Assembly (NCBI RefSeq): GCF_000376945.1
Contig: NZ_AQXU01000017.1
Coordinates: forward strand, 1-64,000
Source: Leeia oryzae DSM 17879
Lineage (GTDB): Bacteria > Pseudomonadota > Gammaproteobacteria > Burkholderiales > Leeiaceae
Direction of reading: 5' to 3'
DNA length: 64,000 bases
Shown piece after piece: positions 4,020 through 21,228 of this stretch (the stretch's first letter is position 1; each line of letters starts with the position of its first letter). Made by a program: the position numbers and the translations under genes. A model generated the notes under the pieces. The model was not told where the DNA came from, searched no databases, and was given only the letters and a program-made list of their open reading frames with translations.

Positions 4020-4319
4020 CTAAGGTGTATGGTAGGCTCGCTGAAGTTTTCTAGATTGCTGCGCACTTTCATTCTCACCTACCAAGTCTTGCATACGAGC
4101 AGCGAGAAACACCGCGAGCTTTTGCAGCTTCGCGTCAATTTCAGCGATTTGTGATGCAGTCGGTCTATCTGATGCAGGCAGTGCCATGCACTCATCAATT
4201 AACTCAGAAAATTCTGGCAGGCGAGAGACCAGCTCATCTCCGGCATTATTCTCGGTCAAAAGATCGAGATCAGCTAGTATTAGCTGTAGCTGATCCCACT
4301 TTTTAAGTAACTCAGACAT
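4020..4319 (-). CDS. Probable FliT-like flagellar chaperone
   Basis: A 99-residue, mostly helical, acidic protein directly after fliS. Size and position fit FliT, the export chaperone of the FliD cap protein, but primary-sequence similarity in this family is low and no diagnostic motif is visible. The start ATG overlaps the fliS stop codon as TAATG (4317-4321), implying translational coupling. It could instead be an unrelated small helical protein of the flagellar cluster. Confidence 0.5.
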   Translation of the reverse strand: MSELLKKWDQLQLILADLDLLTENNAGDELVSRLPEFSELIDECMALPASDRPTASQIAEIDAKLQKLAVFLAARMQDLVGENESAQQSRKLQRAYHTP

Positions 4320-4762
4320 TAGACTTTGCCATAACTAATAGTGGCGGTAGTGTCACCAGAAGACTTTTGCTGCCCCGTCATACCTGATTTGGACAGCTCT
4401 TCCCAGGCCCCTCGCAGTTCTGCCAATAACTTATGAGCCTCGTCCAGCAGGGCAGGATCATTCTTCAAATTGGCTTCCATCAGAGTCTTTTCAACATAAA
4501 GGTAGAGATCCTGAAGATTCAGGGCCAACTCACCACCTATCTGCAAATTCAAAGCACCTCTTAATGCAACGACAATATTGGTTGCTTTGGAGATCAAAGC
4601 AGATTTCGCTGGGAAATTTTTCTGCTCAATCTCACCCTTGGCACGCATGATAGCTGCCATGGCACCATCGTATAGCATCACGATTAGCTCTACAGGAGAA
4701 GCAGATAATACAGCCGAGTCAATATTGACATTACGGTATGCATCCAGCGCACGTGACACCAT
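4319..4762 (-). CDS. fliS: Flagellar secretion chaperone FliS
   Basis: A 147-residue protein with the FliS core: ALDAYRNVNIDSAVLSASPVELIVMLYDGAM at the N-terminus, then the ISKATNIVVALRGALNL and LQDLYLYVEKTLMEAN blocks. FliS binds the C-terminal helix of flagellin in the cytoplasm and prevents early polymerisation before export. It follows fliD by 35 bases and has AGGA before the start. The C-terminal tail (about residues 125-147, Ser/Thr-rich) is longer than in the shortest homologues. Confidence 0.92.
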   Translation of the reverse strand: MVSRALDAYRNVNIDSAVLSASPVELIVMLYDGAMAAIMRAKGEIEQKNFPAKSALISKATNIVVALRGALNLQIGGELALNLQDLYLYVEKTLMEANLKNDPALLDEAHKLLAELRGAWEELSKSGMTGQQKSSGDTTATISYGKV

Positions 4763-4797: not shown

Positions 4798-6144
4798 TTA
4801 TAACCTTGAGATATAGCTTGTCATTTGGGTAATTTTTGAAAGCGCTGTCTCCATCGCCGTAAACTGCTTTTTATATCTTGCTTCAACATCTACGAGACGT
4901 AACTCCATGGCATCAATGCGATCTTGTGCATCTACCTTCTGCTTATTTAGGCTATTTGTTCGTGTAGCAATCAAGCCATCACTCTTGGTAATGTCAAACG
5001 CCGTGTTGTAAATCTTGTTTGCAAATCCACCACTTGCATCCGAAAACAGACCTTGAACCGCTGAAGGGTTGTCATTGATGGCTTTGGATAACACCGTTGA
5101 ATCCAAAGCTAGAGAACCGTCCTTCTGAAAGGTGATCCCGATCTGAGATAAATAGGTGTAGTTATTACCACTAATTGATGTCGATGAGCCAAATACCGAT
5201 CTCATCTGATTCATGATGGTCAGGGAGGTATTATCCGCCTCTAGCCGCCCACCTTTGGAATGCATGGTATCGAAATTCCCCTTGAAGGAATTATATGCAT
5301 CAACCAATGCTTTAACCTTGGCGGTCATGGCTGCTACGTCTTTTGTAATGGCCAATGTAGAGGTTTTTGGGGTAACAAGATCAGCAGATTTCAGTGTAAG
5401 CGTTACACCATCAATCACATCAGAAAAAGTATTGGTACTACGCGTAAATGAGATGCCATCAATTTTGAAAGAGGCATCCTGTGCTGCTTGTACGGTGTCA
5501 TAAGCGCTTTTGGTAGTATCAAAAACATCCAGACCGGCACCGCCTGTGGAGCTGGTATTTGTGACGGAAATACCGGAGGAAGCACCTGACGACTTAGCGG
5601 TGAGTGTTAAACGATTGGTTGTGCCATCATTAATGATGGAAGCAACTATAGATGTATTATTGTTATTGGAATTAATAGCATCCCTGATTTGCTCCAGAGA
5701 TGAATCACTCGCCAACGTAACATCAAAAGCATTGGTCCCTGAACTGAGATGCAAGCTTCCGGCGGTATTAGCAATTGCCACTGAGGTTGAGGCAAAGGGG
5801 TTCGCGACCTTTGTAATCAGTTTGTTAGCTTGCGCCAACAGGGACACACTCAGACTATAATTGCCAGTAGCAGCACTTCCCGTGGAGGAGACAGTTGCGA
5901 CATTAGTATCGCTGCTTGTAGAAGCACTTAAACTCAAGCTGCTACTGTCTTTTAAAGCAGCTGCGGCAGCTTGGATACCAGACACACTACTAGTGATTAC
6001 GCCTAAAGCAGAAATGGTTGTAGAAAAACTTTTAAGTTTTGCTTGTAATAATAGCTCTGGCTGGCGTTCGACTGACATCAAACTCGACACAAGACTGTTC
6101 GTGTCAATACCACTAATAAGCCCAGTAGATGATGAGATACCCAT
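4798..6144 (-). CDS. fliD: Flagellar filament cap protein FliD
   Basis: A 448-residue hook-associated protein 2. The N-terminus (SSSTGLISGIDTNSLVSSLMSVERQPELLLQAKL) and the C-terminal coiled region with RIDAMELRLVDVEARYKKQFTAMETALSKI are typical D0 parts. The middle is rich in Ser, Thr and Ala. FliD forms the cap under which flagellin subunits fold. AAAGGAC precedes the ATG. It sits in the order flaG-fliD-fliS, common in proteobacteria. Confidence 0.93.
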   Translation of the reverse strand: MGISSSTGLISGIDTNSLVSSLMSVERQPELLLQAKLKSFSTTISALGVITSSVSGIQAAAAALKDSSSLSLSASTSSDTNVATVSSTGSAATGNYSLSVSLLAQANKLITKVANPFASTSVAIANTAGSLHLSSGTNAFDVTLASDSSLEQIRDAINSNNNNTSIVASIINDGTTNRLTLTAKSSGASSGISVTNTSSTGGAGLDVFDTTKSAYDTVQAAQDASFKIDGISFTRSTNTFSDVIDGVTLTLKSADLVTPKTSTLAITKDVAAMTAKVKALVDAYNSFKGNFDTMHSKGGRLEADNTSLTIMNQMRSVFGSSTSISGNNYTYLSQIGITFQKDGSLALDSTVLSKAINDNPSAVQGLFSDASGGFANKIYNTAFDITKSDGLIATRTNSLNKQKVDAQDRIDAMELRLVDVEARYKKQFTAMETALSKITQMTSYISRL

Positions 6145-6181: not shown

Positions 6182-6592
6182 TCAAGCTTTTTGCTTGGTT
6201 AGCAAACTTTGAAACTCTTCTATTCTCTTGGCCAAGTCCATCATGTCTTCAGACGGGATCTGGCGAATAACTTCTTTTGTGTCTTTGTCCATTACTTTAA
6301 ATACTACTGTGCCACTATCATCATCAATTGATAACTCCAGGGATGCGGCCATTTTCTGAATGGTCTTGTTAATCTGCTCAGCAACTTCTTTCATGCTTTG
6401 CTGGTTGGGAGCATCTTGCTGTGCATCTTTGCTTTGCTGCCCAGCCTTGGGGTTATCAGCTTGAGATACTGCCTGAGGAGTTTGACCTTGTACACCAGCA
6501 GCAGTTGCACCATTCACCTTATCAGGCTGGTTATTTTTGACTGGTGGCACCGTGTTCATTGGAAGAACAGAGGTGAGATTCTTAATGTCCAT
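6182..6592 (-). CDS. flaG: FlaG family flagellar protein
   Basis: A 136-residue protein with a disordered, Gln/Asn-rich N-terminal half (about residues 15-70) and the conserved FlaG C-terminal domain (about 70-136) with LELSIDDDSGTVVFKVMDKDTKEVIRQIPSE. FlaG proteins influence filament length in several genera; the mechanism is unclear. The gene lies between fliC and fliD with AGGAGAG before its start, downstream of the fliC terminator. Confidence 0.9.
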   Translation of the reverse strand: MDIKNLTSVLPMNTVPPVKNNQPDKVNGATAAGVQGQTPQAVSQADNPKAGQQSKDAQQDAPNQQSMKEVAEQINKTIQKMAASLELSIDDDSGTVVFKVMDKDTKEVIRQIPSEDMMDLAKRIEEFQSLLTKQKA

Positions 6593-6666: not shown

Positions 6667-7572
6667 TTAACGGAGCAAGGACAATGCTTGCTGAGGCACA
6701 GAGTTAGCCTGTGACAGAATCGCAGTACCAGCTTGTTGCAGAATCTGGTTACGAGTCAGTTTTGCAGTTTCTTCTGCGAAGTCAGCATCCTGAATACGGC
6801 TGCGAGAGGCAGACAGGTTCTCGACATAGTTTTGCAAGTTTGCAATCACGGCTTCAAAACGGTTTTGAATCGCACCGAAGGTTGAACGTGAGTTTGATAC
6901 GATACCGATGTCGGCATCAATTTGTGCAATCGTTGCAGAAGCTGCACCAGTATTCAGAACACTAATAGTGCCTGTTGCTGTCAGAGAAGTTGCGTATGAG
7001 TTCAAGCCACCACTTGTTGCTGTAGTTGAACCACCCAAACCGGAAGCCAGGAACAAATCACCAGATGCAATGGTAACCTGGTTAGTCGCGCTACCATCAG
7101 AACCAACCTGGAATGTAAGACCGGCGGCCGCAATACCACTAGCAGCTGCACCAGTTACAAACAAGTGCGTACCGTTAAATTCTGTTGTAGTAACGATACG
7201 TGAAATCTCTTGAGTCAGCTGGTCAACCTCTTTTTGAAGCTGCGAGCGGTTGGTATCACTTACTGTACCGTTAGAAGCCTGAACAGCAATCTCACGGATA
7301 CGTTGCAAGTTATTACCGATTTGACCCAGTGCACCTTCACCAGTTTGAGCCAGAGAAATACCGTCATTGGCATTTCGGATCGCTTGCTGGTCACCACGGA
7401 CACGTGAATTCAGCCCTTCAACAATCGCCAGACCGGCTGCATCATCTTTTGCACTGTTAATGCGCAAACCTGATGACAGACGCTGCAAGGAAGTGGAAAG
7501 TGCTGAGCTGGTAGTAGACAAGTTACGTTGGGCATTCAGCGAGGCAACGTTTGTATTGACGATAAGAGCCAT
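6667..7572 (-). CDS. fliC: Flagellin
   Basis: A 301-residue flagellin. The N-terminal D0/D1 region (MALIVNTNVASLNAQRNL, then SLQRLSSGLRINSAKDDAAGLAI) and the C-terminal region (SRIQDADFAEETAKLTRNQILQQAG ... ALSLLR) are canonical. The central region (about 140-220) is short and rich in Ser, Thr, Gly and Ala, offering many possible O-glycosylation sites. It has its own sigma28 promoter (7650-7676), a CTGGAG ribosome site and a strong terminator. Glycosyltransferase genes lie directly upstream. Confidence 0.95.
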   Translation of the reverse strand: MALIVNTNVASLNAQRNLSTTSSALSTSLQRLSSGLRINSAKDDAAGLAIVEGLNSRVRGDQQAIRNANDGISLAQTGEGALGQIGNNLQRIREIAVQASNGTVSDTNRSQLQKEVDQLTQEISRIVTTTEFNGTHLFVTGAAASGIAAAGLTFQVGSDGSATNQVTIASGDLFLASGLGGSTTATSGGLNSYATSLTATGTISVLNTGAASATIAQIDADIGIVSNSRSTFGAIQNRFEAVIANLQNYVENLSASRSRIQDADFAEETAKLTRNQILQQAGTAILSQANSVPQQALSLLR

Positions 7573-7685: not shown

Positions 7686-9380
7686 TTAACTTTTTTTATC
7701 AATCTGCATTTGTTGCTTCAATGCATTGGCAACCCGGTTCATGACATTTCCCCAATCCCCGAAAGATATCTGCCTGAATTGATAAACAGACGAGTACCAG
7801 TCACAGTCTGTTCTGTTGTGGCCCCATCTCCAGTCTGAGTCATATCGATTAAGGAGCCACACCGGCACACCGAGCGCCCCTGCAAGATGCACGACAGAGG
7901 TGTCGACAGAAATCAGCAAGTCGAGTTGTTGAAGATACGCGGCCGTATCTGCAAAATCTTCAATATTTACCGTTAAATCTACCAGTTGAAGTTGGCGTGC
8001 AGCATCAACGTCTGGTGCAATCCCTTTCTGTAGACTATGAAAAGTAACATTGGGGACAGCAGCCAGGGGTGTGAATAAAGAAAGCGGAATGCTTCTGCGG
8101 TTATCCAGCCATTCTGAGCGCGCAAAACCTTGGCGGCGGCTACCTTGCCACACTAGTCCAATTTGCACTTGCTGTCTGCCTTTGTAGGGCGCTAACAGAT
8201 CAGACCATTTTGCCACCTGTGTATCCGGTACCTGCAAGTACGGAATGTCACACAGTGGCTTGGCCCCCCTATCTAGCCACAATGGCAAGTTCATGATAGG
8301 GACATGGTATTCGGTTTGCACATCAAATTTGTCTGCAAACTGGACGTTAGGCCATGTCTGTTTGCACAGGGCGTGCAAAGGGTTTGGGATATCCAGGTAA
8401 ACCGTCGCCCCCTGGCGAAGTAACATTGGCACATAACGAATAAAATGAAGGCAGTCTCCCAGACCCTGCTCTTCGAATACCAAGATCCGTTTGCCATCAA
8501 GTGATTCGCCTTGCCAGAGTGCAGATTTCAGCTCTGGCATACGGCCGTTAATTGCAGCCCGCCATCGCCAAGTATACGCTGGCCATGCCTCTGCGTAGTG
8601 CCCCATCTCAAGCAAAACTAAACTTCGGTTCCAGTTTGATAACGCATGATCTGGCCGCAGTGCCAGCGCATTGTCAAAAGCGACTAGCGCCTGCTGCAAT
8701 TTTTGCTGTCCATGCAGGACAATTCCATAATCACACCAGAGCTCGGTGCTGCGTGGGTCCAGCGCCAAGGCTTGTCTTAGCAATCTTGATGCAGAAACCC
8801 AGTCATCCAGATAACGGGCTGCAAGGGCTCGAAGCATGAGTGGTTCAGCGGCAACCGAATCTAGTTGACACGCTTGATCTGCAAACTGGCAAGCGTCCTG
8901 ATATTGCCCTAGTTCAATACATAGCGCAGCCAAACGGCAATACGGAATAATCGACGCTGGATATATTGACAAGGCTTTATGATATGTAGCAAAAGCCAAG
9001 TCATATTTCTCTAGCTCACAAAATGATTTTCCCAGTAAAGACAACGCTTCCAGAGACTCAGGCAACTCGGATGGATATGCCCAAAGGCAATCTATAACCC
9101 CCTGCCAATCTTCTTTCATAAACAAGAGTTCGGCTAATACCAAGGTCAGTCGATTGCAAGCATCCTTGGGGGCTTGACCAATCAATCCGCGTAATGCCTG
9201 CTCATCTTGCTGGCGTTGATATACCAATGCAAGGTTACCCCACGAATCAAGATGATCCGGAGCAATTTTCAGAATCTCCTGATACAGCGCAACTGCCCGC
9301 TCCGGCGCAGATGATTGGCATGCAACAGCCTCACTAAACCAGGCTTGTAATGTATTAACGATATCCTGAACATCCATCAT
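7686..9380 (-). CDS. TPR protein with C-terminal GT-B-type glycosyltransferase domain
   Basis: A 564-residue protein. Tetratricopeptide repeats fill about residues 1-260 (for example APERAVALYQEILKIAPDHLDSWGNLALVYQRQ). The C-terminal half has glycosyltransferase-like blocks: LVFEEQGLGDCLHFIRYVPML, IGLVWQGSRRQG and SVDTSVVHLAGALGVPVWLL. This architecture is common in bacterial SPINDLY/OGT-related and heptosyltransferase-like proteins. Its start overlaps the upstream gene's stop as TAATG, so it is coupled to the giant glycosyltransferase. A paralogue lies at 42229-43590. Lying immediately before the fliC promoter, it is a candidate flagellin-modifying enzyme (inference). Confidence 0.8.
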   Translation of the reverse strand: MMDVQDIVNTLQAWFSEAVACQSSAPERAVALYQEILKIAPDHLDSWGNLALVYQRQQDEQALRGLIGQAPKDACNRLTLVLAELLFMKEDWQGVIDCLWAYPSELPESLEALSLLGKSFCELEKYDLAFATYHKALSIYPASIIPYCRLAALCIELGQYQDACQFADQACQLDSVAAEPLMLRALAARYLDDWVSASRLLRQALALDPRSTELWCDYGIVLHGQQKLQQALVAFDNALALRPDHALSNWNRSLVLLEMGHYAEAWPAYTWRWRAAINGRMPELKSALWQGESLDGKRILVFEEQGLGDCLHFIRYVPMLLRQGATVYLDIPNPLHALCKQTWPNVQFADKFDVQTEYHVPIMNLPLWLDRGAKPLCDIPYLQVPDTQVAKWSDLLAPYKGRQQVQIGLVWQGSRRQGFARSEWLDNRRSIPLSLFTPLAAVPNVTFHSLQKGIAPDVDAARQLQLVDLTVNIEDFADTAAYLQQLDLLISVDTSVVHLAGALGVPVWLLNRYDSDWRWGHNRTDCDWYSSVYQFRQISFGDWGNVMNRVANALKQQMQIDKKS

Positions 9381-12300
9381 TACTTACCGGCAGGTCTTGT
9401 CAATGCAGACAGCCATTCCTGGGCATGATCTTCGATCATGTAATGATCATGAACCCACTGCCGGAGCTGATCACCCTTCTGCGCTGTTGCATCTAGATCT
9501 GCAATATGAGACCGAATAGCTTCAATCCAGGCAGAAGCATCATTAGGAACACGGCACACGGGGGCATTATTGGTCTGATATGGATATATATCCGTACAGA
9601 TCACCGGCCAGCCCAAGGCGCCGTACTCAAGCAAACGAAGGTTACTCTTCGCCTCGTTGAAAGCATTGATTTCCAAAGGCGCAATCGCCAGATCAAGATT
9701 AAGTGCAGCAATGCCTTGCGGGTATTTATCATATGTCAGCCACTCGGTATTCACTTCTGCAACATACGGGCGAATGTCATCCGGACACATCCCCTGGAAG
9801 ACCCAATCCACTTCATGACCGGTGGCTTTGACCACGTCGGTCATCAATGCCAAATCACCTGCATGCTGCTGAGCCCCCACCCAACCAACACGGGGCTTCT
9901 TGCCTGCCCGACGCTTGGATACCAAATCTCCCCAGACAGATCGCTCTAGCATGTTGGGTACGACAATAATGTCATCAATCATGTCTTCAGCAAATGTTCT
10001 CAAGGGTTCTGTACTGACGATCAAACGGTCGCAAAATTTAAGCGATTTGCGCAGTCGTGCTTTCGCATCACGCCAGTTCTTCTGAAAGTGCCGTTTAAAA
10101 CTGCTGGCATCAGGGATTTCAGTTAGCAAGTCATCAAGCATTTGAATTCTGAAGACGCTGGGCAAATATTTCTTGTACATCTCCAGCATTCGAATAAACT
10201 CATCCGCAAGCGCATTCTGAACCACAAATACATCCGGTGCATTTCTGGCCAGCTCGGTTATGGATGGTAATCTAGCCTTTGATGTCATATTAGACAGGAC
10301 TATTTCAGCCAATGCAGAACGCTCTAATGTTCTGAAAGGCATATTCACGCGATATTCACCACTTCCCCCGACCAAGGCCATACCTTGCAATCGCGGACGC
10401 GCTGACGGAATGTCATCCCAAAGCGGTGTATGCGTGCAATCAATTGTCCCATTGCATTCAGATTTATCTAACAAGCGATGATAATAAGGGTCATTGGCGA
10501 TAATATCCAACCAATGGGAAAGCATATATTCGCGCTCTTGCCGGGTTTGAATGACCATCATCAGATGTTTTTCATGATCTGAATTTGAATTCAGCGTTTT
10601 ACCCGTATGGTGAACTAACGTTGAGAACGGTGTCCAGACAACTGACTTATGCAACTGCCTGATGCGAAGACATAAATCAACATCACCATAAAGTACGGCC
10701 AGATTTTGCTCATTCATTCCGCCTACTTGCTGGTAGAGCGACTTCCGGACCAGCAAACAAGCACCAGTAACTGCAGAATAATTCTGTACTACTTTTGTTC
10801 TATTCAGTGATACATCTTTGTCTACAGGAAAGTTCATATAGGGGAACTGGAAAACTTCATCCGGATATTTCCCGCCAAGCACAATACCAGCATGCTGGAT
10901 TGTCACGGTTTCAGGAAACACCAAGCGGGCACCAACTACACCAACATCATTACGCTGCGCATGCTGCATCATGCGCTCAAGCCAATTTGCCTGAACAATC
11001 TCGGTGTCATTATTCAAGAATAGAATAAAGTCACCACGAGCAGATTCTGCACCCAGATTACATTGGGCTGAAAAGTTGAAAGGATTATCATATTGTATAA
11101 CCTTTACATTATTCGCAAATCTGCTCTCAATCTCTTCATAATAACTTAGCGTATCTGGATCCGTTGATTGGTTATCAACAATAATCACTTCAAACGCAGG
11201 GTATTGAGTTACCTTCATTAAGGTCTCAATGCACGGAGCCAAAAATTCATGCTTGTCTTTATTAGGAATAATGATTGAAACAAACGGTTGTTCCGAATGA
11301 TGGTACTGTACCAGGAAGGTTCCAGTAACATAGCCCTCTTCGATACTGGCAGAAATGTTATTTCTGTGGAGATGCTCTTCGAGCGCCAACTGCATTGCAG
11401 CCACACGAAGGGAGTTTTCTGGCTGATTTTCCGGAAAAGTCATCACGGGTTCAGGAAGGTGCTCTATTGTCTGAGGACCATAGTTATCCAGCATCCTGAA
11501 ACAGGCTTCATATGTTCTGGCACCGGGGAATGAGGCAAATCCTCCAACAGCGGCGAGAGAGTCAGTACGAAAGAATATAGATGATCCAATGTAATCCTGA
11601 GATCTCAACATATCAAGATTGAATGCGGGTTTAAGGACAGGGTCCTTAATCATCCCATCATCAGAAACATAGTCATGATCTGTATAAATAACACAAGCAC
11701 CACCGTTAAGCAGAAGCCGATCACCCACTTTAAGGAGGGCTGTACTTGTAAGCCTTGTACCGACGGGCAGTATAGTGACCCAGTCTGAAGGCACTTCTGC
11801 CAAAACCCCATTAAATGCCTGAGTCAACAGATTTTCATCTTCTACAGTCTCAAGCGTTAACCACCCTAGAACTTCATTATTGATAAAACTCTCATCAGGG
11901 GCTTCAAAATCAGAAATGACAATCAGTTTCCAGCCAGAATAAAGCTGCTGACAAAAGCTATCGATTGTATTGGCCAGCAGATTTTGCTGGCTTTGCTTAA
12001 CAACCATCACAATCATAAACTGGTACTGCTTACTCCACTGCAGCATCATTCTTTCTGCAAGAATTTGCACGGCCAGTTCATTAGGCTGCCTAGCATTAAC
12101 CCAGCCTTGGTATGAGTTCTCGTTTTTAGGAGTAACATCCTGACGGTTTGATAGCGAATTTATCAAGCTTTGCCGATTAGCTAGAATGGACTCGTTTTCA
12201 ACCGGATGTTTTGCATAGATTTTCTGATGATATGCGAGAAGCTTATCTGCATTTGCACGCAGTGTATGATCATCTCTAGATCTGTCACTTCTAACTTCAA

Positions 12301-15300
12301 CAGTAGTTGCATTGACTTGATAAAATTCAGTGACTTTAGAAGCACGCAACAGAAAATCCCAATCCTCCAGAATTTCCAGAGACTCATCAAAGTCACCAAT
12401 CGTATCGATCAGTTCTTTGGTGTGCGACCATGTTGGTGTTGGAATAAAATTACTGACCAATAATTGAGCTCTAGAGTAGGATATGCCCGCATATCTACGC
12501 TCTCTGCCAAGCTCGATCAGTCGACCTTCTTTTCTTTCTTGAATTAAATATTCACAATTGGTATAGATGAATTTCTCTGACCTGCCCTTGTAGGCATCGA
12601 CCAGTTTCTCAAGATGGCTATCAAGATAAACATCATCGTCATCCAGATACGCGATAATTCTGCCTTTGGCTAATTTTAGCGCACGATTACGGGATGCAGC
12701 AGCGCCACCGGATTGAGATGAACGTACGTAGGAAATTTGTAATTGATCACTAAAGAAATCTACAATGCCACCGATATCACAACCGCCATCATTATGAATG
12801 ACTACTTCAAAGTCTTTGAATGTTTGATAAGTCAGACTTTCGAGAGCATTGGCCAATAACCCCGGGCGGTTTTTAGTTGGGATGATGACGGATATAACAG
12901 GCCCGGCCCCTTTTCTTAGGTAATCCTTTATATTATTTATGCGACTAAGCAAATGTTGAATTTGATTTTCAGGATAACTGGATGCACGATTGTCCAAATG
13001 TGCAATTATTTCTTCTTTAGCTTTTAGCAGATACTTAACAGCAACCTTACGATCAATTATGGACTCAACAATACGTATATGATCTTCAAGAGGAGCAGTT
13101 GAGGCATAAAAATCAACTGAGTTATTTCCAGAGTGCTGCCTATAGCATACCCCAGGCTGTTTTCGGAAAATAAAAGCAGGTGAAATTTCTGCAATCCTGA
13201 TCCAGAGATCCCAATCGATCGCACCTTTCAAATGCAGATTCATCGAACCAATGCGATTGAGTGTTTCCCGTCTTATCACGGCAGCTGATGGCGTAATATA
13301 GGAATCAAATTTAAGAAGATCTGAAATTTCATCACGCCCGCCAACATAGTCACTCTCTAAATGTCCAGGGTGATTCAACGTACCTAATGGTTGATCATGC
13401 TCATTAATCCATAGGCATGGGGTGTAGTAAAGTGATGACGCTGGATTTTCATCTAGCCGCTTTACTGCTTGCTCAAGATGACCAGGAAGTAATAAATCAT
13501 CCGCTGACAACATAACAACATATCGACCTGTCGCAAGCCAGGTCGCATGATTCCAGTTATGCTGAACACCTATATTCCAGCGATTACGGATAAGCCTGAC
13601 CTGTGGATAATCTGCAAAAAATTGCAGCTGTGACCAACTGTCATCCGTAGATGCATTATCAAGCACCAGTAATTCAACCGAAACATTTTGATTAAGTGCC
13701 GAGGTAATTGCTGATACGACAAAATTTCCGTGATTATAATTAGGCACGACAACGCTTACATCGGTTCGCTCATGCGGGAAAAGACAATCCTGCACAATTG
13801 TACGAGTGATGGTGTTAATAAAGGCATCAGCGCTGAAAGGATAGGCCTTCCCTCCCAGAAAGAACTGGCGAATATTCTCCAGATAGTCGGCATGAACTTC
13901 TTCAGTCATGCTTATCAGATAGGTATATAACGCATCAGTATCTGGAAACTTGCCACTATCAATAAAGCAATTATCCGGAATCCAGTCTGCAATATTAGGA
14001 GCACCACTATAAACAGGGACCACGCCTGCCTTGAAGCAATCTATGATTTTCTCGGTAATATATCCAGGAAGTTCTTTGGCATTTTCATAACAGAGGGAAA
14101 AGCGATAGCCTTTTAAAACTTCGAGCTTATCGTCAATCTTACCCTTATAACTAGGGTAGTCACTAGCACTCCAGCCCATACCGTAAAGATCAAAATGTTC
14201 AGGGTGATGCGACTCAAACCACCGGATAACTTCGATCCGCTTGCTGTATAGCTCAAATGGATGGGATACCAGTTTATTACCAGAAATATTGCAGATGAGT
14301 TTCTTTTGAAGGTACCCCTTTCTCGCTGTTTCTTCAAAAGGAGCAGTCAGACTCTGCGCTGATTCAATCCAGGGCATTAAATCTGTTACATAATTGACTT
14401 TAATGTATCTATGGTTATCCACCAGTCCGTCGTGCCATGTGAATATACGGGTAAATAGCTCATGCAGTGATTGCTGCCAGTTATCAGGTTTGATCAACTC
14501 ACACTCAAGCAGACACAGATATTTCTTGATATCTAGCTGCATGACGCTGGAAACCAGTGGGCTTCTCATGTTTGGTGCATCAAAAAACAATACGGCATCT
14601 AATGTAGAAAGATCTGCAACGAGATCTAACGTAACGAACTCAAGATTATGAGCTTGGCCATATTGATACAGCTGATTGAAAGGCTTTAGCAGTTCATGTC
14701 CAATGGGCGCATTTTTATTGAGGAAAATATAGTTATTCTGATAGAACTCCTCATAAAAACCCCATACGCCAATCCTCAGTTTTCGGCCGCGAACATCACC
14801 ACCTGCAATCTGCAACAATGCAGTAGATGTATTTTCGGCTTCTTTCTTACCGTCTCCAGTGACATCTACAACGCGCCATTGTGGTGGATAGCATGGCTGC
14901 AAAACTTCGCCGTAAACTTGCAAAAGCCAAGGATCATCCTTCCTGAAAAACTGGGATGGGACAATGGTTAAACCGTCTTGATCAGCAAGCCTTGAGGCCC
15001 AAATCGAGAACGTACTATTTGCCACAATACGATGCCTGGCTTTTGACATCAGGATCATGTCGACAAAGCCGTTGTCTATGCCCTGCCCTCTAACCACAAC
15101 TTTTGGCGCAGGGATATCAAGGTGTGCTTCGACCCAGTCAGGATCATCCGAAAAACAATAAAAGACAGCATCCGGCTGCTGATCAAGCACTAGCTTGATG
15201 GCATCGCGATAATATTGCTGAGGTAACAGGAAGCAATTCGGGTTAGTAACATAATCCCCACGGCGAACATGCAAAGCAACCGCATTTGGCGCAGAGAGAT

Positions 15301-15688
15301 TCATCGCCAACGCTTGTTGCTCAGGGGTTAACGGGTCCATCAGTGTAAAGACAGGCTTCAGTTCTCCCCAAACAGATTCAGAATACCGGTAGTCTGCCCA
15401 GTAGCCATCAAGATACATACCATCCTTGACAGCACTGACCAGTGAATCGTCAAATCGAAAACTGGTTTCAGTAATCACGCCCATCGATTTGGCATGCTCG
15501 ATTTCTTCCAATGAGGCGATCGGGGCTGTAATTTCAAAATTATGCAGACCATAAGGCCAGAGTTTATAACTTTCGAATGCGGTTATATCCAGTTTAAAGG
15601 GGACACCAAGTCTTTTTGCACATGCATGTGCAAAAGCATATTGCATCATCTGGTTGCCCAGTCCACCGATAATTTTGACGATAATCAT
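9380..15688 (-). CDS. 2102-residue multi-module glycosyltransferase (GT11, GT10, several GT2, GT-B)
   Basis: One uninterrupted frame with seven apparent modules. About 1-270: GT11 alpha-1,2-fucosyltransferase-like (GGLGNQMMQYAFA, HVRRGDYV, STFSIWASRL). About 303-600: GT10 alpha-1,3-fucosyltransferase-like (GYRFSLCYENAKELPGYITEKI, VPVYSGAPNI). About 643-850: GT2 (VSVVVPNYNHG, LSADDLLLP). About 930-1135: GT2 (VISVIIPTKNRPG, AYLDDDDVY). About 1224-1430: a degenerate GT-A-like module. About 1467-1735: GT2 (VSIIIPNKDK, FLNNDTEI, a rhamnosyltransferase-like C-part). About 1765-2098: GT-B-like. It probably assembles an entire fucosylated oligosaccharide in the cytoplasm. No membrane segment or signal peptide is seen. 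The ribosome site is weak. Target (LPS or flagellin) unknown. Confidence 0.85.
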   Translation of the reverse strand: MIIVKIIGGLGNQMMQYAFAHACAKRLGVPFKLDITAFESYKLWPYGLHNFEITAPIASLEEIEHAKSMGVITETSFRFDDSLVSAVKDGMYLDGYWADYRYSESVWGELKPVFTLMDPLTPEQQALAMNLSAPNAVALHVRRGDYVTNPNCFLLPQQYYRDAIKLVLDQQPDAVFYCFSDDPDWVEAHLDIPAPKVVVRGQGIDNGFVDMILMSKARHRIVANSTFSIWASRLADQDGLTIVPSQFFRKDDPWLLQVYGEVLQPCYPPQWRVVDVTGDGKKEAENTSTALLQIAGGDVRGRKLRIGVWGFYEEFYQNNYIFLNKNAPIGHELLKPFNQLYQYGQAHNLEFVTLDLVADLSTLDAVLFFDAPNMRSPLVSSVMQLDIKKYLCLLECELIKPDNWQQSLHELFTRIFTWHDGLVDNHRYIKVNYVTDLMPWIESAQSLTAPFEETARKGYLQKKLICNISGNKLVSHPFELYSKRIEVIRWFESHHPEHFDLYGMGWSASDYPSYKGKIDDKLEVLKGYRFSLCYENAKELPGYITEKIIDCFKAGVVPVYSGAPNIADWIPDNCFIDSGKFPDTDALYTYLISMTEEVHADYLENIRQFFLGGKAYPFSADAFINTITRTIVQDCLFPHERTDVSVVVPNYNHGNFVVSAITSALNQNVSVELLVLDNASTDDSWSQLQFFADYPQVRLIRNRWNIGVQHNWNHATWLATGRYVVMLSADDLLLPGHLEQAVKRLDENPASSLYYTPCLWINEHDQPLGTLNHPGHLESDYVGGRDEISDLLKFDSYITPSAAVIRRETLNRIGSMNLHLKGAIDWDLWIRIAEISPAFIFRKQPGVCYRQHSGNNSVDFYASTAPLEDHIRIVESIIDRKVAVKYLLKAKEEIIAHLDNRASSYPENQIQHLLSRINNIKDYLRKGAGPVISVIIPTKNRPGLLANALESLTYQTFKDFEVVIHNDGGCDIGGIVDFFSDQLQISYVRSSQSGGAAASRNRALKLAKGRIIAYLDDDDVYLDSHLEKLVDAYKGRSEKFIYTNCEYLIQERKEGRLIELGRERRYAGISYSRAQLLVSNFIPTPTWSHTKELIDTIGDFDESLEILEDWDFLLRASKVTEFYQVNATTVEVRSDRSRDDHTLRANADKLLAYHQKIYAKHPVENESILANRQSLINSLSNRQDVTPKNENSYQGWVNARQPNELAVQILAERMMLQWSKQYQFMIVMVVKQSQQNLLANTIDSFCQQLYSGWKLIVISDFEAPDESFINNEVLGWLTLETVEDENLLTQAFNGVLAEVPSDWVTILPVGTRLTSTALLKVGDRLLLNGGACVIYTDHDYVSDDGMIKDPVLKPAFNLDMLRSQDYIGSSIFFRTDSLAAVGGFASFPGARTYEACFRMLDNYGPQTIEHLPEPVMTFPENQPENSLRVAAMQLALEEHLHRNNISASIEEGYVTGTFLVQYHHSEQPFVSIIIPNKDKHEFLAPCIETLMKVTQYPAFEVIIVDNQSTDPDTLSYYEEIESRFANNVKVIQYDNPFNFSAQCNLGAESARGDFILFLNNDTEIVQANWLERMMQHAQRNDVGVVGARLVFPETVTIQHAGIVLGGKYPDEVFQFPYMNFPVDKDVSLNRTKVVQNYSAVTGACLLVRKSLYQQVGGMNEQNLAVLYGDVDLCLRIRQLHKSVVWTPFSTLVHHTGKTLNSNSDHEKHLMMVIQTRQEREYMLSHWLDIIANDPYYHRLLDKSECNGTIDCTHTPLWDDIPSARPRLQGMALVGGSGEYRVNMPFRTLERSALAEIVLSNMTSKARLPSITELARNAPDVFVVQNALADEFIRMLEMYKKYLPSVFRIQMLDDLLTEIPDASSFKRHFQKNWRDAKARLRKSLKFCDRLIVSTEPLRTFAEDMIDDIIVVPNMLERSVWGDLVSKRRAGKKPRVGWVGAQQHAGDLALMTDVVKATGHEVDWVFQGMCPDDIRPYVAEVNTEWLTYDKYPQGIAALNLDLAIAPLEINAFNEAKSNLRLLEYGALGWPVICTDIYPYQTNNAPVCRVPNDASAWIEAIRSHIADLDATAQKGDQLRQWVHDHYMIEDHAQEWLSALTRPAGK

Positions 15689-15885
15689 TGCGCATCAACC
15701 ATTCAGGAAAGATGAATTCATCTGGTTTACATTTTTGTTAAGCTGGCACTTTTTTCGGCACGGAATCTGGCCGAAAGACTTGCCTGATAGCCACATCACG
15801 TGCAGCATAGCACATGACAAATACTTGCTGCGCAATCAGGACAAACAAGACCTGTCTTTCAAACAATAAAAGGGGACTCAAGCAA

Positions 15886-16662
15886 ATGAAAGCCGTTATT
15901 TTGGCAGGTGGACTAGGCACCCGAATCAGTGAGGAAACCCAAAGCCGCCCGAAACCAATGGTTGAAATCGGGGGTAAACCCATTCTGTGGCATATCATGA
16001 AAATCTATTCCCACTACGGTATCAATGATTTTGTGATTTGTTGCGGTTTTAAGGGTTATGTAATCAAGGAGTATTTTGCAAACTACTTCCTGCACATGTC
16101 GGATATCACGTTTGATATGGCCAATAACAGCATGGAAGTGCATCATATTCATACAGAACCCTGGAAAGTGACGCTGGTTGATACCGGTGAAGATACGATG
16201 ACCGGTGGCCGTCTAAAACGGGTCAGAGAATATATCGAGCATGAAGATGCCTTCTGTTTTACTTACGGGGATGGTGTTGGCAATATCAATATCAAGGAGT
16301 TGGTAGATTTTCACCGGCAACAAGGCGGACTCGCCACGCTAACGGCTACCTACCCTCCTGGGCGTTTCGGCGCCATTGATCTGCAAGCAGATCAGCGGGT
16401 TCGGTCATTTGTTGAAAAACCTCGTGGTGATGGTGCTTTAATCAACGCAGGCTTTTTCGTCTTGTCTCCCAAGGTGCTGGACTTGATCACTGATGATGAG
16501 ACAATCTGGGAACAAGGTCCGCTGGATACGTTAGCACGTCAAAATCAGCTATCTGCTTTCAGGCATAATGATTTTTGGCACCCCATGGATACATTGCGGG
16601 ATAAAAATCATCTCGAAGACTTGTGGAGATCTGGAACCGCGCCATGGAAAGTATGGGAATGA
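15886..16662 (+). CDS. rfbF: Glucose-1-phosphate cytidylyltransferase
   Basis: A 258-residue nucleotidyltransferase making CDP-glucose from CTP and glucose-1-phosphate, the first step to CDP-3,6-dideoxyhexoses. The start [41 protein letters not shown] carries the nucleotide-binding signature; [16 protein letters not shown] and [13 protein letters not shown] are specific to the RfbF branch. The ATG at 15886 follows AAAAGGGGA; the upstream extension has no ribosome site. It begins a rightward operon divergent from the giant glycosyltransferase. Its end overlaps rfbG by ATGA. Confidence 0.93.
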
Positions 16663-17732
16663 CTTCATTCTGGTCAGGAAAAAAGGTCTTTGTGACAGGC
16701 CATACCGGTTTCAAAGGAGGATGGCTAAGCATCTGGCTGCAAATGCTGGGGGCTGATGTTACCGGTTATGCACTGCAAGCTCCAACAAATCCTTCCATCT
16801 TCGAAACTGCCCGGGTTGCAACCGGGATGCATTCGATCATCGGGGATATACGCGATCTTGCATGTCTGCAACAAGCCATTTCAGATAGCAAACCAGAGAT
16901 CATCCTGCATTTAGCCGCTCAACCATTGGTTCGTTATAGCTATGCAAACCCTGTAGAAACTTATGCGACCAACGTGATGGGGAGCGTTCACTTACTGGAA
17001 TCCGTTCGCAACTGTTCAAGTGTGCGGGCGGTCGTCATGGTGACCAGTGATAAATGCTATGAAAACCGTGAGTGGCTATGGGGTTATAGAGAAAATGAAG
17101 CCATGGGGGGTTATGATCCCTATAGCAATAGCAAAGGGTGTGCAGAGCTGGTCACCAGTGCTTATCGCCAGTCGTTCTTTAACCCCGAGCAGTACGATCA
17201 GCACGGCATAGCCATTGCATCAGCAAGGGCTGGTAATGTGATTGGCGGCGGAGACTGGGCCAATGACCGCCTGATACCGGATATCTTGAAAACCCTAGAC
17301 ACAGGTCACGAGGTACTTATCAGAAGCCCTCATGCCATCCGTCCTTGGCAGCACGTGCTGGAACCTCTGGCTGGATACTTGATGCTGGCAGAAAAACTGT
17401 ACACGGAGGGTGTGCATTTTGCTGAGGCATGGAATTTCGGTCCTGACGATCAGGACATGTGTTCGGTTGGCGCGCTGGTGAAACAGTTACAACCTCTCTT
17501 TGGAGACCGGCTGGACATCGCATTAGCACAAACACCTCCGGCCCTGCACGAAGCCGGTCTGTTAAGATTGGATAGCACCAAGGCTCGCACTCAACTTGGT
17601 TGGCGACCACGCTGGCGCATGAAAGAAGCTGTGCAGCAAATCCATGGTTGGCATACAGCCTGGCTGGCTGGGAATGACATGAGAACAGTGACCGAAGCCC
17701 AGATTCAGGCCTACATGACAGGCAATACTTAG
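16659..17732 (+). CDS. rfbG: CDP-glucose 4,6-dehydratase
   Basis: A 357-residue extended SDR enzyme converting CDP-glucose to CDP-4-keto-6-deoxyglucose using bound NAD. It has the Rossmann motif [21 protein letters not shown], a Thr-Ser-Asp-Lys segment ([11 protein letters not shown]) and [13 protein letters not shown] with the YxxxK pair. The start at 16659 overlaps the rfbF stop (ATGA) and gives the usual family length; the longer frame starting at 16623 is less likely. Confidence 0.92.
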
Positions 17733-17745
17733 ATTGTTATCGGAC

Positions 17746-19077
17746 ATGACACAGATGAATACAGAAGAACTCACCCAGTTGCGCCAGAGAATTCTGGCAG
17801 ACACGGCGCGCTACGCAGAGTCTGCATTGGCACCCAAGACATTTGAACCGGGCGTTACACCAATTCCGGCAGCCGGGAAAGTCATTGGGGCACCAGAGTT
17901 GCAAATGATGGTAGACGCTTCGCTGGATGGCTGGTTGACAACCGGCCGCTTTAATGAAGCCTTCGAGCAAAAGCTGGCCAACTATCTTGGCATCAAATAT
18001 GTTTTAACCACCAACTCGGGATCTTCTGCAAATTTACTGGCATTTTCGACCTTGACATCACCCCGACTCGGTGACCGGGCAATTCAAAAGGGAGATGAAG
18101 TAATCGGCGTAGCTGCGGGCTTCCCCACTACAGTGAATCCGATTCTGCAGTTTGGGGCTGTACCCGTTTTTGTCGACGTGCATTTGCCTACTTACAATAT
18201 CGACCCGGCCAAGATAGAAGCCGCCATCACCCCAAAAACCAAAGCCATCATGTTAGCCCATACGCTTGGTAACCCGTATAACCTTGATGTGGTGACCAGC
18301 CTGTGTAAAAAATATGGCTTGTGGCTTATTGAAGACTGCTGCGATGCATTAGGATCAAGTTATCAAAACCAGTTGGTTGGTTCGTTCGGAGATATAGGTA
18401 CACTTAGTTTTTACCCGGCGCATCACATCACCATGGGCGAAGGCGGCGCGGTCTTTACCAATAATCCAGAATTAAAACTGATTGCAGAAAGTTTCAGGGA
18501 CTGGGGACGAGACTGCTATTGCCAGCCTGGTAAAGACAATACCTGTGGCAAACGTTTTTGCTGGAAACTGGGTGACTTGCCTGAAGGGTATGACCACAAA
18601 TATACCTATTCGCACCTGGGTTATAACCTGAAGATTACCGATATGCAAGCCGCTTGTGGGCTGGCACAGATGGAGCGTGTGGATGGGTTTGTAACAGCCA
18701 GGAAGCAGCATTTTAGCTGGCTGAAAAACCGTTTAAACAGTTGTGAAGAGTTTCTGATGTTGCCAGAGGCGACAGAGCATAGCGACCCGTCCTGGTTTGG
18801 TTTTCCTGTCACCCTTAAACCAGAGTCAGGCATCAACCGGGTAGATGTATTGAATTACCTTGATCAGAACCGCATTGGTACTCGCCTTTTGTTTGCAGGC
18901 AATTTGACCCGCCAGCCCTACATGAAGGGACAAGTGTACCGGGTTAGTGGAGAGCTAACCAACACTGATCTGGTGATGAACAACACCTTCTGGATTGGTG
19001 TACATCCAGGGTTGACAGAAGAAATGCTGGCCTTTGTGGCGGATAAGCTAGAAACCATTTTGGGTGTAAATTTTTAA
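17746..19077 (+). CDS. rfbH: CDP-6-deoxy-4-hexulose 3-dehydrase (E1, RfbH)
   Basis: A 443-residue PMP-dependent, iron-sulfur dehydrase that removes the C-3 hydroxyl. Two E1 hallmarks are visible. The usual aminotransferase lysine is replaced by His in [16 protein letters not shown] cysteine cluster ([17 protein letters not shown]) fits the [2Fe-2S] ligands. E1 normally needs the reductase E3 (AscD/DdhD), and no E3 gene is seen in the window. The start is placed at the ATG at 17746; the next ATG at 17755 is also possible, and no clear ribosome site decides between them. Confidence 0.92.
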
Positions 19078-19159
19078 AATGCTCTACGCGATTTATTATC
19101 CACATAAGAAATCAAGGCAATAGCAGAATATACATATCAAAAGATTCTCGGAGGCAACT

Positions 19160-20248
19160 TTGCCTATTACCTTCTTAAAATCCAGCATGATTGCTGACCA
19201 AAATAGAATTATTGCGGAAGATATTAGCTGGATTATTTCTTCTGAATTGCCGTGGAAGCATCTTGAAAACAAGACTATTCTGGTGACTGGCGGAGGAGGA
19301 TTTCTTGCTTCATATATTGTGAAATCACTTCTTGACGCCAATAAAAACTTTGATCTTCATTTGCGAGTAGTTTGCATTGCAAGAAATATGCAGAGTATTC
19401 AGCGGCGTTTAGCTGACTACTTGCATCTTGAGGCGCTGCAAATCTTTATTCATGATATCACCCTACCTCTTCCAGATAATTTTCCTGGTGCGGATATCAT
19501 CATTCACAGTGCCAGTCAGGCAAGCCCTAAGTTTTATGGGATAGATCCGGTGGGTACATTACTGGCTAATACAGCTGGTACTATGTATTTACTGGAACAT
19601 GCCAGGAAACTTGGAACCAGCAAATTTCTTTTTTTTAGCAGCAGTGAAGTGTATGGCTCACCAGCAAACGCTGACAAACCACTGACTGAAACAGACTTTG
19701 GCTATCTGGACCCGATGCAAGTCAGATCATGCTATGCAGAGGGAAAAAGAATGGGAGAAAACATGTGCATCTCCTGGTTAAAACAGCACAAAATTCCTTC
19801 TGTGGTTGTCAGGCCATTTCATACGTATGGGCCAGGCATGGCCTTAGACGATGGCCGAGTCTTTGCAGATTTTGTCGCAAGTGCAGTCAATAAAAGTACC
19901 GTCCAGATAAAAAGCGATGGGTCTGCTATGCGCGCATTCTGCTACATTGCAGATGCAACGCTAGGTTTTCTGACGGTACTCCTGCAGGGAGAATCTGGAG
20001 AAGCCTATAATATTGGTAACCCAGAGGGTGAGCTCTCCATCAAGGCATTAGCAAATCTCATTGTTGGTTTATATCCAGAACGAAATCTGAATATACAATT
20101 TGATGCGCCAGCTACTTCCCATTACATGAAAAGCCCGACCAATCGTTCTTGCCCCTGCATTGAGAAAGTGCAGCAAATTGGATGGCAACCTTCCATTTTG
20201 CCGGAGGAAGGCTTCCGCAGAACAATTTCGTCCTTTCTGACGATGTAA
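19160..20248 (+). CDS. NAD-dependent epimerase/dehydratase or reductase (extended SDR)
   Basis: A 362-residue extended SDR with NAD motif VTGGGGFLASYIV (about residues 41-53), HSASQASP, FFSSSEVYGSP and a catalytic Tyr in RSCYAEGKRMGE (YxxxK). After RfbH it could reduce or epimerise the CDP-4-keto-3,6-dideoxy sugar, as paratose/abequose synthases do, but the sequence alone does not fix this. The start is probably TTG at 19160, because GGAGG lies five bases before it; the first ATG (19187) has no ribosome site. The gene looks more AT-rich than rfbFGH. Confidence 0.75.
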   Translation: MPITFLKSSMIADQNRIIAEDISWIISSELPWKHLENKTILVTGGGGFLASYIVKSLLDANKNFDLHLRVVCIARNMQSIQRRLADYLHLEALQIFIHDITLPLPDNFPGADIIIHSASQASPKFYGIDPVGTLLANTAGTMYLLEHARKLGTSKFLFFSSSEVYGSPANADKPLTETDFGYLDPMQVRSCYAEGKRMGENMCISWLKQHKIPSVVVRPFHTYGPGMALDDGRVFADFVASAVNKSTVQIKSDGSAMRAFCYIADATLGFLTVLLQGESGEAYNIGNPEGELSIKALANLIVGLYPERNLNIQFDAPATSHYMKSPTNRSCPCIEKVQQIGWQPSILPEEGFRRTISSFLTM

Positions 20249-20267
20249 CAAACCAAAGGTCATACCG

Positions 20268-21206
20268 ATGAAATCACTCCACAGCACACGACACGAATTT
20301 CAGCATGGCCTCATTGATAAGCCTACTTTCATCAGGACGATGTATGAGGAGCACCATTACGCCCTCTATGATTATGCAAGCTATATAGGCCAAACGAATA
20401 TCAGGAAAATAGAGATCGAAGATAACCAGGTTATCATGACAACAAAAGACCGAGGGATTCGTCTTTTATGTTCCGCAAAAGACTATCGAATTGCGCCGAT
20501 TGAAATTTTAAATTTTTTAGATTATGAAAAAGATGAATATTCAATGATTGACAATTTATCTGCTGAATGCAGAAGCATCATTGATATAGGTGCAAATATT
20601 GGCCTATACGCACTTAATATGGCGGTATCCAACAGATCTGCAAAAATTTTCTGCTTTGAACCAATACCAAAAACCTTTTCTGTTTTACAAGAAAATATAC
20701 GACTTAACTCAGTTAATAATATTCATGCTTTTAACTTTGGACTATCTGATGAGAATAATGAATTCTTGTTCTATTATTATCCGGAGGGTTCAGGAAATGC
20801 TTCATCTGTCAACGTATCCGAAAGGTCGGATATTGAGACGGTAACCTGTCAAGTCAAAAAGATGGATACATATTTTGCGACAGAAGGTATTCATGCCGAT
20901 TTTATAAAATGTGATGTAGAAGGTGCCGAGCTGCTCGTTTTTAAAGGCGGTCAGACCGTGATTTCCCGGGACTGTCCAATTGTCTTCTCAGAAATTCTAA
21001 GAAAATGGTCAGCAAAATTCAATTATAACCCCAATGAAATTTTCACTTTTTTTGCCAACTTAGGGTACCGTGCATTTACTGCAAAAAATAACTATCTGCA
21101 TGCTTTTTCTGTCATGGATGAAAAAACTGTTGAGACAAATTTTTTCTTTTTGCACAATGAAAATCATAAAGAGCTTATTAAGCGATATGAATATATGACC
21201 GCTTAA
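20268..21206 (+). CDS. FkbM family methyltransferase
   Basis: A 312-residue SAM-dependent methyltransferase of the FkbM family. The SAM site is IIDIGANIGLYALNMAVS (about residues 104-121) with an acidic end to the next strand (FCFEPIPKTF). The family motif IKCDVEGAELLVFKGG follows near 220-235. It probably O-methylates a sugar of the glycan made by this cluster. It is visibly AT-rich compared with the flanking genes, consistent with horizontal exchange of sugar-modifying genes. AAAGG lies before the ATG. Confidence 0.82.
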   Translation: MKSLHSTRHEFQHGLIDKPTFIRTMYEEHHYALYDYASYIGQTNIRKIEIEDNQVIMTTKDRGIRLLCSAKDYRIAPIEILNFLDYEKDEYSMIDNLSAECRSIIDIGANIGLYALNMAVSNRSAKIFCFEPIPKTFSVLQENIRLNSVNNIHAFNFGLSDENNEFLFYYYPEGSGNASSVNVSERSDIETVTCQVKKMDTYFATEGIHADFIKCDVEGAELLVFKGGQTVISRDCPIVFSEILRKWSAKFNYNPNEIFTFFANLGYRAFTAKNNYLHAFSVMDEKTVETNFFFLHNENHKELIKRYEYMTA

Positions 21207-21228
21207 CGCGAGAATCAGAAAGTACACT

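Follow-up and report, generated by a model that had tools for sequence, protein, structure and literature searches.

What is built, and on which acceptor, by a single polypeptide that joins glycosyltransferase modules of families GT11 and GT10 to five further glycosyltransferase modules? The gene that raises this question (P0001) lies in a stretch of 64,000 nucleotides of Leeia oryzae DSM 17879 (assembly GCF_000376945.1, contig NZ_AQXU01000017.1, positions 1 to 64,000), called the window below. Most enzymes of families GT10 and GT11 are fucosyltransferases, and a first-pass annotation of the sequence had read the protein as a builder of a whole fucosylated oligosaccharide, with lipopolysaccharide (LPS) among the suggested targets. 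We find that the fusion is genuine and out of the ordinary, and that the enzyme is most likely a flagellin glycosyltransferase of the FgtA type whose front is new. The gene and its modules are as follows.

9380..15688, minus strand: P0001, probable flagellin glycosyltransferase of seven modules, 2102 residues, no internal stop
14879..15688, minus strand: GT11 module, residues 1–270 (Pfam PF01531, and alignment with 13 separate GT11 proteins)
13781..14791, minus strand: GT10 module, residues 300–636, with PGYITEKI (Pfam PF00852, phmmer and fold match)
12914..13780, minus strand: GT2 module a, residues 637–925 (nearest solved sequence chondroitin synthase, 2z87)
12119..12913, minus strand: GT2 module b, residues 926–1190 (nearest solved sequence 9jma, a beta-1,3-glucosyltransferase of PglI type)
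11309..12118, minus strand: core part 1, diverged GT2-like, residues 1191–1460 (YTDHD motif at 1335–1339)
10484..11308, minus strand: core part 2, GT2 module c, residues 1461–1735 (NND and DVDLCLR motifs kept)
9383..10483, minus strand: core part 3, GT-B of GT4 type, residues 1736–2102 (weak sequence match plus structure)

The frame, recognised as a single polypeptide in the first-pass annotation, which left its strand unstated, starts with ATG on the minus strand and runs for 6.3 kb without a stop or frameshift. The other two frames of that strand carry 11–40 stops per module, and 1 and 3 in the short linker at 247–300; a simple check saw no ribosome-site-like sequence at the module junctions, a weak point since the true start is also without one. 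An artefact of assembly or frame is rejected because of the open frame, the stops throughout the alternatives and, with less weight, the junctions. From the N- to the C-terminus the modules are GT11, GT10, GT2, GT2, a diverged GT2-like module, GT2 and a GT4-like GT-B, as judged from Pfam, module-wise scans and structure. The whole-protein Pfam scan gives GT11 at 4–246, GT10 at 474–598, four GT2 stretches and a weak terminal GT-B, and the families listed are glycosyltransferases only. Structures were predicted with AlphaFold2 for residues 1–640 (23-row alignment, mean predicted local distance difference test score, pLDDT, 82.8) and for residues 1190–2102 (33 rows, mean pLDDT 91.4).

The two N-terminal assignments, first read from motifs, hold in the profile search. 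PF01531 matches residues 4–246 (E 8e-20, 71.7 bits against a curated cut-off of 23.9), and in an alignment with 13 separate GT11 proteins the module retains GGLGNQM, GYW, FSDDP and HVRRGDY, the last being the HxRRxDY motif of GT11. PF00852 matches residues 474–598 (E 2e-12, 47.4 bits against 23.9), and the TEK motif of GT10 is kept in PGYITEKI. A phmmer search of solved structures finds Helicobacter pylori FucT (2nzw, E 1.9e-11) with the GT10 module and ties residues 518–639 to alpha-1,3-fucosyltransferases. The model of residues 281–639 has the two-domain GT-B fold of H. pylori FucT and matches GT10 enzymes best, namely that enzyme with GDP (2nzx; Z 19.6, root-mean-square deviation, rmsd, 3.8 over 293 aligned residues) and human FUT9 (Z 19.6, rmsd 3.5, 272 aligned); the scores of other GT-B enzymes are only slightly lower (Z up to 18.1). 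Structure prediction, proposed in the first-pass annotation as a check, thus supports the folds of GT10, GT2 module c and the terminal GT-B; for residues 1–640 the match list covers 281–639, filled as it is by the GT10 part, and a family absent from such a list is not thereby excluded. By sequence search among solved chains the GT11 part has no relative, only one chance match (E 0.37). The two modules are joined by a linker of low model confidence (residues 247–299).

Downstream of this front, the three clear GT2 modules of the first-pass annotation are borne out when each is scanned alone against PF00535: 636–925 (E 4e-24), 925–1190 (E 4e-23) and 1460–1735 (E 2e-21). The phmmer search of solved structures ties residues 644–886 to chondroitin synthase and 931–1132 to the PglI-type glucosyltransferase, and the model of about 1450–1741 matches polypeptide N-acetylgalactosaminyltransferases (Z 23–24.3). 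The module between the second and third of these, residues 1190–1460, had been called worn-out; its GT2 match is indeed weak (PF00535 E 0.017, below cut-off), but it is a conserved part of its family, with a DxD in a Y-x-D-x-D context in 29 of the 33 rows of the core alignment, counted by eye. A dead module is therefore unsupported, though the region of the usual first aspartate of GT2 is gone in many rows. The C-terminal GT-B module, also named in the first-pass annotation, is weak by sequence (1735–2102, PF13692 E 0.0035, below cut-off) and supported by structure, the model of 1763–2102 matching GT-B enzymes, one of them titled family GT4, at Z 22.8–26.3.

What the protein acts on is indicated by its neighbours and by its C-terminal half. 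The large gene is the first in a same-strand series (large glycosyltransferase, TPR protein, flagellin, FlaG, FliD, FliS), whose further members are:

7686..9380, minus strand: TPR protein whose C-terminal part weakly resembles GT9; its start and the large gene's stop overlap
6667..7572, minus strand: flagellin, the probable acceptor protein (Pfam Flagellin_N and Flagellin_C)
6182..6592, minus strand: FlaG-like protein, a name supported by the same annotated gene order in Pseudomonas aeruginosa
4798..6144, minus strand: FliD (Pfam FliD_N and FliD_C)
4319..4762, minus strand: FliS-like export chaperone, a name with the same support from P. aeruginosa gene order

The central part of the flagellin, residues 135–215, contains 25 serines and threonines. 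The C-terminal 913 residues (1190–2102) were used as a core query in 150 genomes of the same order and gave matches in 114, many of them generic GT2; the 34 loci of best core score after the window's own were fetched with their flanks in stretches of about 20 kb. All three core modules stand at the C-terminus of one long open reading frame in 33 of the 34, the exception being L110, whose frame has the first two, the third being matched on another contig of the same genome. At 21 loci a flagellin gene follows the frame on the same strand, either immediately or after an intervening TPR gene, and at two (L093, L106) it lies elsewhere in the stretch. In the two other genomes of the genus present in our samples the cores are 59% and 55% identical to that of the window, in frames of 1492 and 2106 residues, each followed by a TPR protein in the same place, flagellin, FlaG, FliD and FliS; both frames also contain GT2 module b, and GT11 and GT10 were not found there.

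The front varies around this core. Among 20 loci scanned, the N-terminal regions contain GT2 modules (9), methyltransferases (8), GT1/GT4-type modules (4), a radical SAM domain (1), RgpF (1) or nothing recognised (2), some with more than one kind, and none contains GT10 or GT11; a phmmer search of all 34 large frames with the window's own modules, which was the sole search for the other 14 loci, also found neither. This suggests from sequence comparison that the N-terminal half is the exchangeable part, the core being retained, and that bacteria may swap it to alter the sugar chain of their flagella. Two of these loci are unusual in themselves: at L084 (7805–13435, minus strand) a radical SAM domain precedes two GT2 modules and the core in an FgtA-type protein, and at L083 (4244–7792, minus strand) a protein of 1182 residues with repeated matches to the TPR glycosyltransferase, apparently a duplicated fusion, stands between the large glycosyltransferase and flagellin.

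The link to a characterised system comes from P. aeruginosa. In a collection of plasmid sequences, a single one of 298 records covers 80% of the core query: a P. aeruginosa protein of 1694 residues, annotated as a CDP-glycerol glycerophosphotransferase family protein, which aligns by tblastn over 99% of the core at 31.9% identity (E 3e-112) and has the three core modules in the same order. Its gene is preceded by methyltransferase, HAD phosphatase and NTP-transferase genes and followed by a B-type fliC, flaG, fliD and fliS. This gene order fits pa1088–pa1091 as described in PMC11833859, and on that ground we infer that the protein is FgtA (PA1091). In the same account the flagellin of a pa1091 mutant is unglycosylated, the core deoxyhexose alone remains in pa1088–pa1090 mutants, and a glycosyltransferase and a phosphotransferase share the gene pa1091. 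At E 1e-5, residues 1–700 of the P. aeruginosa protein match none of the large frames at the 34 loci; the window's front was compared with it using the window's own modules as queries, and these matched in the core alone. A further observation concerns the record NZ_CP131792.1 (L147), of 846,886 bases, which is listed as a P. aeruginosa conjugative plasmid and carries flagellar genes, fliC, fleQ, fleS and fleR among them; it may be part of a chromosome.

How unusual the front is can be judged from 399 genomes of the order, that of L. oryzae included, and for GT11 from a further, partly overlapping sample of 369 genomes of the class. PF01531 is found in 33 and 18 of these, respectively (own genome included), in frames of at most 626 residues apart from the window's own; PF00852 is found in 26 of the 399, the longest other frame having 743 residues. 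The search for the same domain order elsewhere, another of the proposed checks, thus finds the GT11–GT10 front in the L. oryzae genome only within these samples, and that genome has GT10 once and GT11 once, both inside the fusion. The view that the two families are normally separate is right as a rule, but in five of the eight other order genomes with both they lie no more than 2.5 kb apart. With the N-terminal 640 residues as query, a search of contigs returned one GT11 of Parabacteroides and nothing more, and a search of plasmids returned 16 records with separate GT10 or GT11 matches, each reaching over less than 80% of the query. The closest GT10 found to that of the window (342 bits; L046 253–2478, minus strand, genome G128) is itself fused, to about 385 residues that match no module of the window. 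At two loci (L116 6449–16237 and L118 6876–16294) the minus-strand order is gmd, fcl, GT10, GT11, GT2, GT2 as separate genes, among which others may intervene; their gene content resembles the modules of the fusion, and both genomes are without colD.

Which sugar the front transfers bears directly on the word fucosylated. Colitose is a rare sugar, 3-deoxy-fucose, and its pathway from manC, gmd and colC to a colD with its catalytic histidine is present in the genome. The genes are on another contig (C25), which carries a GMP/PMI gene (manC, 567 bits), gmd (581 bits), galE, a DegT-family gene and an Fcl-like gene that, at 300 bits, stays under the Fcl cut-off of 500. The DegT-family gene encodes ColD (578 bits, E 5.5e-173 against ColD/WbdK crystal structures), and its product keeps SHHIATMEGG, including the catalytic histidine that, according to PMC8987622, marks 3-dehydratases. 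The Fcl-like product is 59–63% identical to the ColC-type proteins beside colD in six order genomes and 54% to that of Escherichia coli O111, as against 39% to Fcl of E. coli K-12 and 33–34% to Fcl of two colD-less genomes; a 12-row tree separates ColC-type from Fcl proteins at 100/100, K-12 Fcl forming a long branch in it. A supply of GDP-fucose through gmd with a true Fcl or through salvage was not found: the Fcl-like gene is of ColC type, no second strong Fcl match occurs in the genome (the next has 56 bits), and the salvage enzyme fucose pyrophosphorylase (PF07959) has no match there. The absence of GDP-fucose synthesis genes from the window itself, stated in the first-pass annotation, is borne out as far as tested, the two gmd/Fcl matches there being weak (44 and 54 bits). 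In the two same-genus genomes neither gmd above its cut-off nor ColD was found.

Co-occurrence points the same way. Matches to ColD at E 1e-100 are present in 13 of the 399 genomes, that of L. oryzae included, and in six of the others the protein is close (67–70% identity). All six have GT10 (three), GT11 (one) or both (two), the nearest such match lying 1.5–12.6 kb from colD, as against 43 of the 392 genomes without a close ColD (Fisher p 2.6e-6). The six further ColD-like matches, 53–54% identical and with GT10 alongside in one genome only, are counted apart because of that low identity and because the three that were fetched (L140–L142) lack any match to gmd or colC in the stretch retrieved, that of L140 being a short contig; these three are possibly a different 3-dehydratase or an aminotransferase. 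The donor is thus likely, from gene content, to be GDP-L-colitose and not GDP-fucose. The whole-oligosaccharide part of the first-pass proposal is the most sensible reading of the protein. Its adjective is probably wrong, since this is the only GDP-deoxy-L-hexose pathway found, with no true Fcl or salvage enzyme found; what was called fucose there should be read as a GDP-L-6-deoxygalactose-type donor, most likely colitose. Two other routes to this decision failed: phylogeny of GT10 and GT11, in which the colD label is scattered, and gene neighbourhood, the colitose genes being on the other contig with none in the window.

Taken together, we consider it probable that P0001 is an FgtA-type flagellin glycosyltransferase that works from its C-terminus forwards, with an exchangeable front that caps the chain with colitose. 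In the cytoplasm, the core (1190–2102) would put the first sugar or sugars on serine or threonine residues of flagellin; the middle pair of GT2 modules would lengthen the chain, and the N-terminal GT10 and GT11 would finish it with L-colitose from GDP-L-colitose supplied by the manC–gmd–colC–colD group. The front would be exchangeable, the cores of relatives carrying methyltransferase, radical SAM, GT2, GT4-type or RgpF modules in its place and, according to the literature, a phosphotransferase in P. aeruginosa. What the analysis shows directly is the set of modules, the core held in common, the flagellin neighbourhood, the changing front and the genes for colitose, with none for fucose found. 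We infer which protein is the acceptor, which donor each module uses and in what order the modules act, from the core to the N-terminal end; the core-first order would be carried over from one published system. A bolder version, which we hold to be unlikely, is that a chain of Lewis b or y type, colitosylated twice, is built on flagellin by this single protein, the FgtA family being a reverse assembly line in which evolution rewrites the flagellar glycan as front modules are swapped together with the donor pathway. A GT11 and GT10 pair acting on a disaccharide made by two GT2 modules would resemble Lewis b or y. In this version the core would start on serine or threonine, the middle pair would make the disaccharide and GT10 and GT11 would cap it, and the product would imitate a human blood-group antigen in 3-deoxy form.

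Several observations weigh against the colitose-capped flagellin chain. Flagellin is absent from the fetched stretch at 11 of the 34 core loci, and the initiating role of the core would be drawn by analogy from published mutants of a 32%-identical homologue that is PA1091 by gene order. Near the end of the GT11 module the motifs of its relatives are changed, ANSSFSWW to ANSTFSIW and VIAP..W to IVPSQFF (compared by eye, the aligner having misplaced the last third of the 13 separate proteins), so that full GT11 activity is not certain, the family assignment being unaffected. When all 12 other ColD-like matches are counted, five are without GT10 and GT11 (p 1.4e-4), and the association, a count of ColD against GT10 and GT11, may partly reflect any GDP-6-deoxysugar and not colitose alone. 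On trees of the GT11 (28 rows) and GT10 (17 rows) sequences at hand the genomes with colD are not separated, and their sequence therefore cannot tell colitose from fucose. Finally, the colitose genes of C25 stand beside three GT4-type genes and genes for a polysaccharide flippase-type protein, an asparagine-synthase-like protein and a WecA-like protein (PF00953); because they adjoin this group on another contig, C25 may be an O-antigen locus that itself uses colitose, and the O-antigen may be the sole or main destination of GDP-colitose.

One alternative is that the same flagellin enzyme transfers L-fucose, ColC also acting on the 4-keto-6-deoxymannose intermediate to give some GDP-fucose, with colitose going to the O-antigen. 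Such a side activity of ColC may exist, both families consist mostly of fucosyltransferases, the GT11 enzyme WbgN accepts both donors, the C25 group looks like part of an O-antigen locus, and L116 and L118 combine GT11 and GT10 with gmd and an Fcl-type fcl in the absence of colD; we nonetheless regard it as unlikely, given that the Fcl-like gene groups with ColC and adjoins colD, that the salvage enzyme has no match and that a close ColD goes with GT10 or GT11 in six of six other genomes. Very unlikely, in our judgement, is a protein that builds a lipid-linked or LPS oligosaccharide, its place beside flagellin being incidental. The first-pass annotation had suggested LPS, and the 11 loci without flagellin would suit this; against it, the Pfam families of the protein are glycosyltransferases only, and flagellin follows directly at the 21 loci and likewise in the P. 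aeruginosa homologue, which by gene order has published flagellin mutants. Because of the FgtA-type core in the C-terminal half and the place of the gene at the head of a flagellar series, the target is most likely flagellin, and an LPS enzyme is set aside on the same two grounds. That the fusion is recent or decaying, with a partly inactive front and a core that works alone, would agree with its occurrence in no other sampled genome, the altered GT11 motifs and the diverged first core module; it is compatible with the other readings but seems improbable beside 6.3 kb of open frame, a GT10 with its TEK motif and fold, a GT11 that keeps GGLGNQM, GYW, HVRRGDY and FSDDP, and a matching donor pathway that is kept in this genome and not found in the two same-genus genomes. 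These alternatives are not all mutually exclusive, either with each other or with the colitose-capped chain.

If the colitose-capped chain is real, colitose would be the end sugar of a flagellin glycan made by a GT11–GT10 fusion. Colitose is described on LPS (PMC8987622), and searches by titles and the starts of abstracts, covering colitose with flagellin, GT10/GT11 in multidomain glycosyltransferases and fucosyltransferases in flagellin glycosylation, listed no report of such a glycan or fusion, though other terms or journals may hold one. With a fixed core and an exchangeable front, the architecture of a gene would foretell the structure of its glycan, and Lewis-like glycans could be made with one-pot enzymes.

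Divergent from the large gene is a second group of sugar genes:

15814..22937, plus strand: CDP-sugar group of rfbF, rfbG, rfbH, an epimerase, an FkbM methyltransferase and a transketolase split into two genes

This could be a second donor pathway, for a branched or extended 3,6-dideoxyhexose, perhaps feeding one GT2 module. The stretches of the same-genus loci contain no close matches to these genes, only rfbH-like ones (115 bits) in L082. Homologues of rfbF and rfbG are also present upstream of an FgtA-type gene at L085 (2065–3957, G091) and L087 (1957–3954, G048), and from these neighbourhoods CDP-sugars may have been used by the family more than once. The three loci of this one nominal genus differ in GC content, measured in 2-kb steps (0.36–0.43 in L081, 0.57–0.65 in L082 and 0.41–0.50 in positions 1–23000 of the window), and by eye in the open reading frame lists the outer neighbours of the flagellin–glycosyltransferase group differ too; the group may be mobile as a cassette, or the genus may be broad.

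Among known systems, FgtA (PA1091) of P. aeruginosa strains with b-type flagellin is like P0001 in its three-module C-terminal core, in having several activities in one gene and in its place directly before fliC–flaG–fliD–fliS, although in the window a TPR gene stands between; it differs in the 31.9% core identity and in that the PAO1 glycan is a deoxyhexose with a phospho-dimethylthreonine-type group and not a colitosylated chain. Fgt1 and Fgt2 of P. syringae, likened here by their description, are also flagellin glycosyltransferases encoded upstream of fliC, and Fgt1 transfers rhamnose to serine (PMC3927599); they are two separate proteins, and the glycan is a modified viosamine–rhamnose–rhamnose. 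WbgN of E. coli O55 is a GT11 alpha-1,2-colitosyltransferase whose natural donor is GDP-colitose, with GDP-fucose tolerated (PMC11987014 and PMC12723683), and its genome likewise has gmd, a ColC-type gene and a DegT-family gene; unlike the module it is a separate protein of 290 residues acting on glycolipids, and the GT11 tree leaves its placement relative to the module unsettled. The alpha-1,3-fucosyltransferase of H. pylori shares the fold and the GYxTEKIID motif with the GT10 module, at 17–18% identity in structure alignments. It is a separate enzyme that makes Lewis antigens of LPS. The top Foldseek matches of the core are K4 chondroitin polymerase and Pasteurella heparosan synthase 2, at query-normalised TM-scores of about 0.2 and with large rmsd, so that the arrangement of modules differs; those enzymes carry two GT2-type modules per chain and make a repeating polymer.

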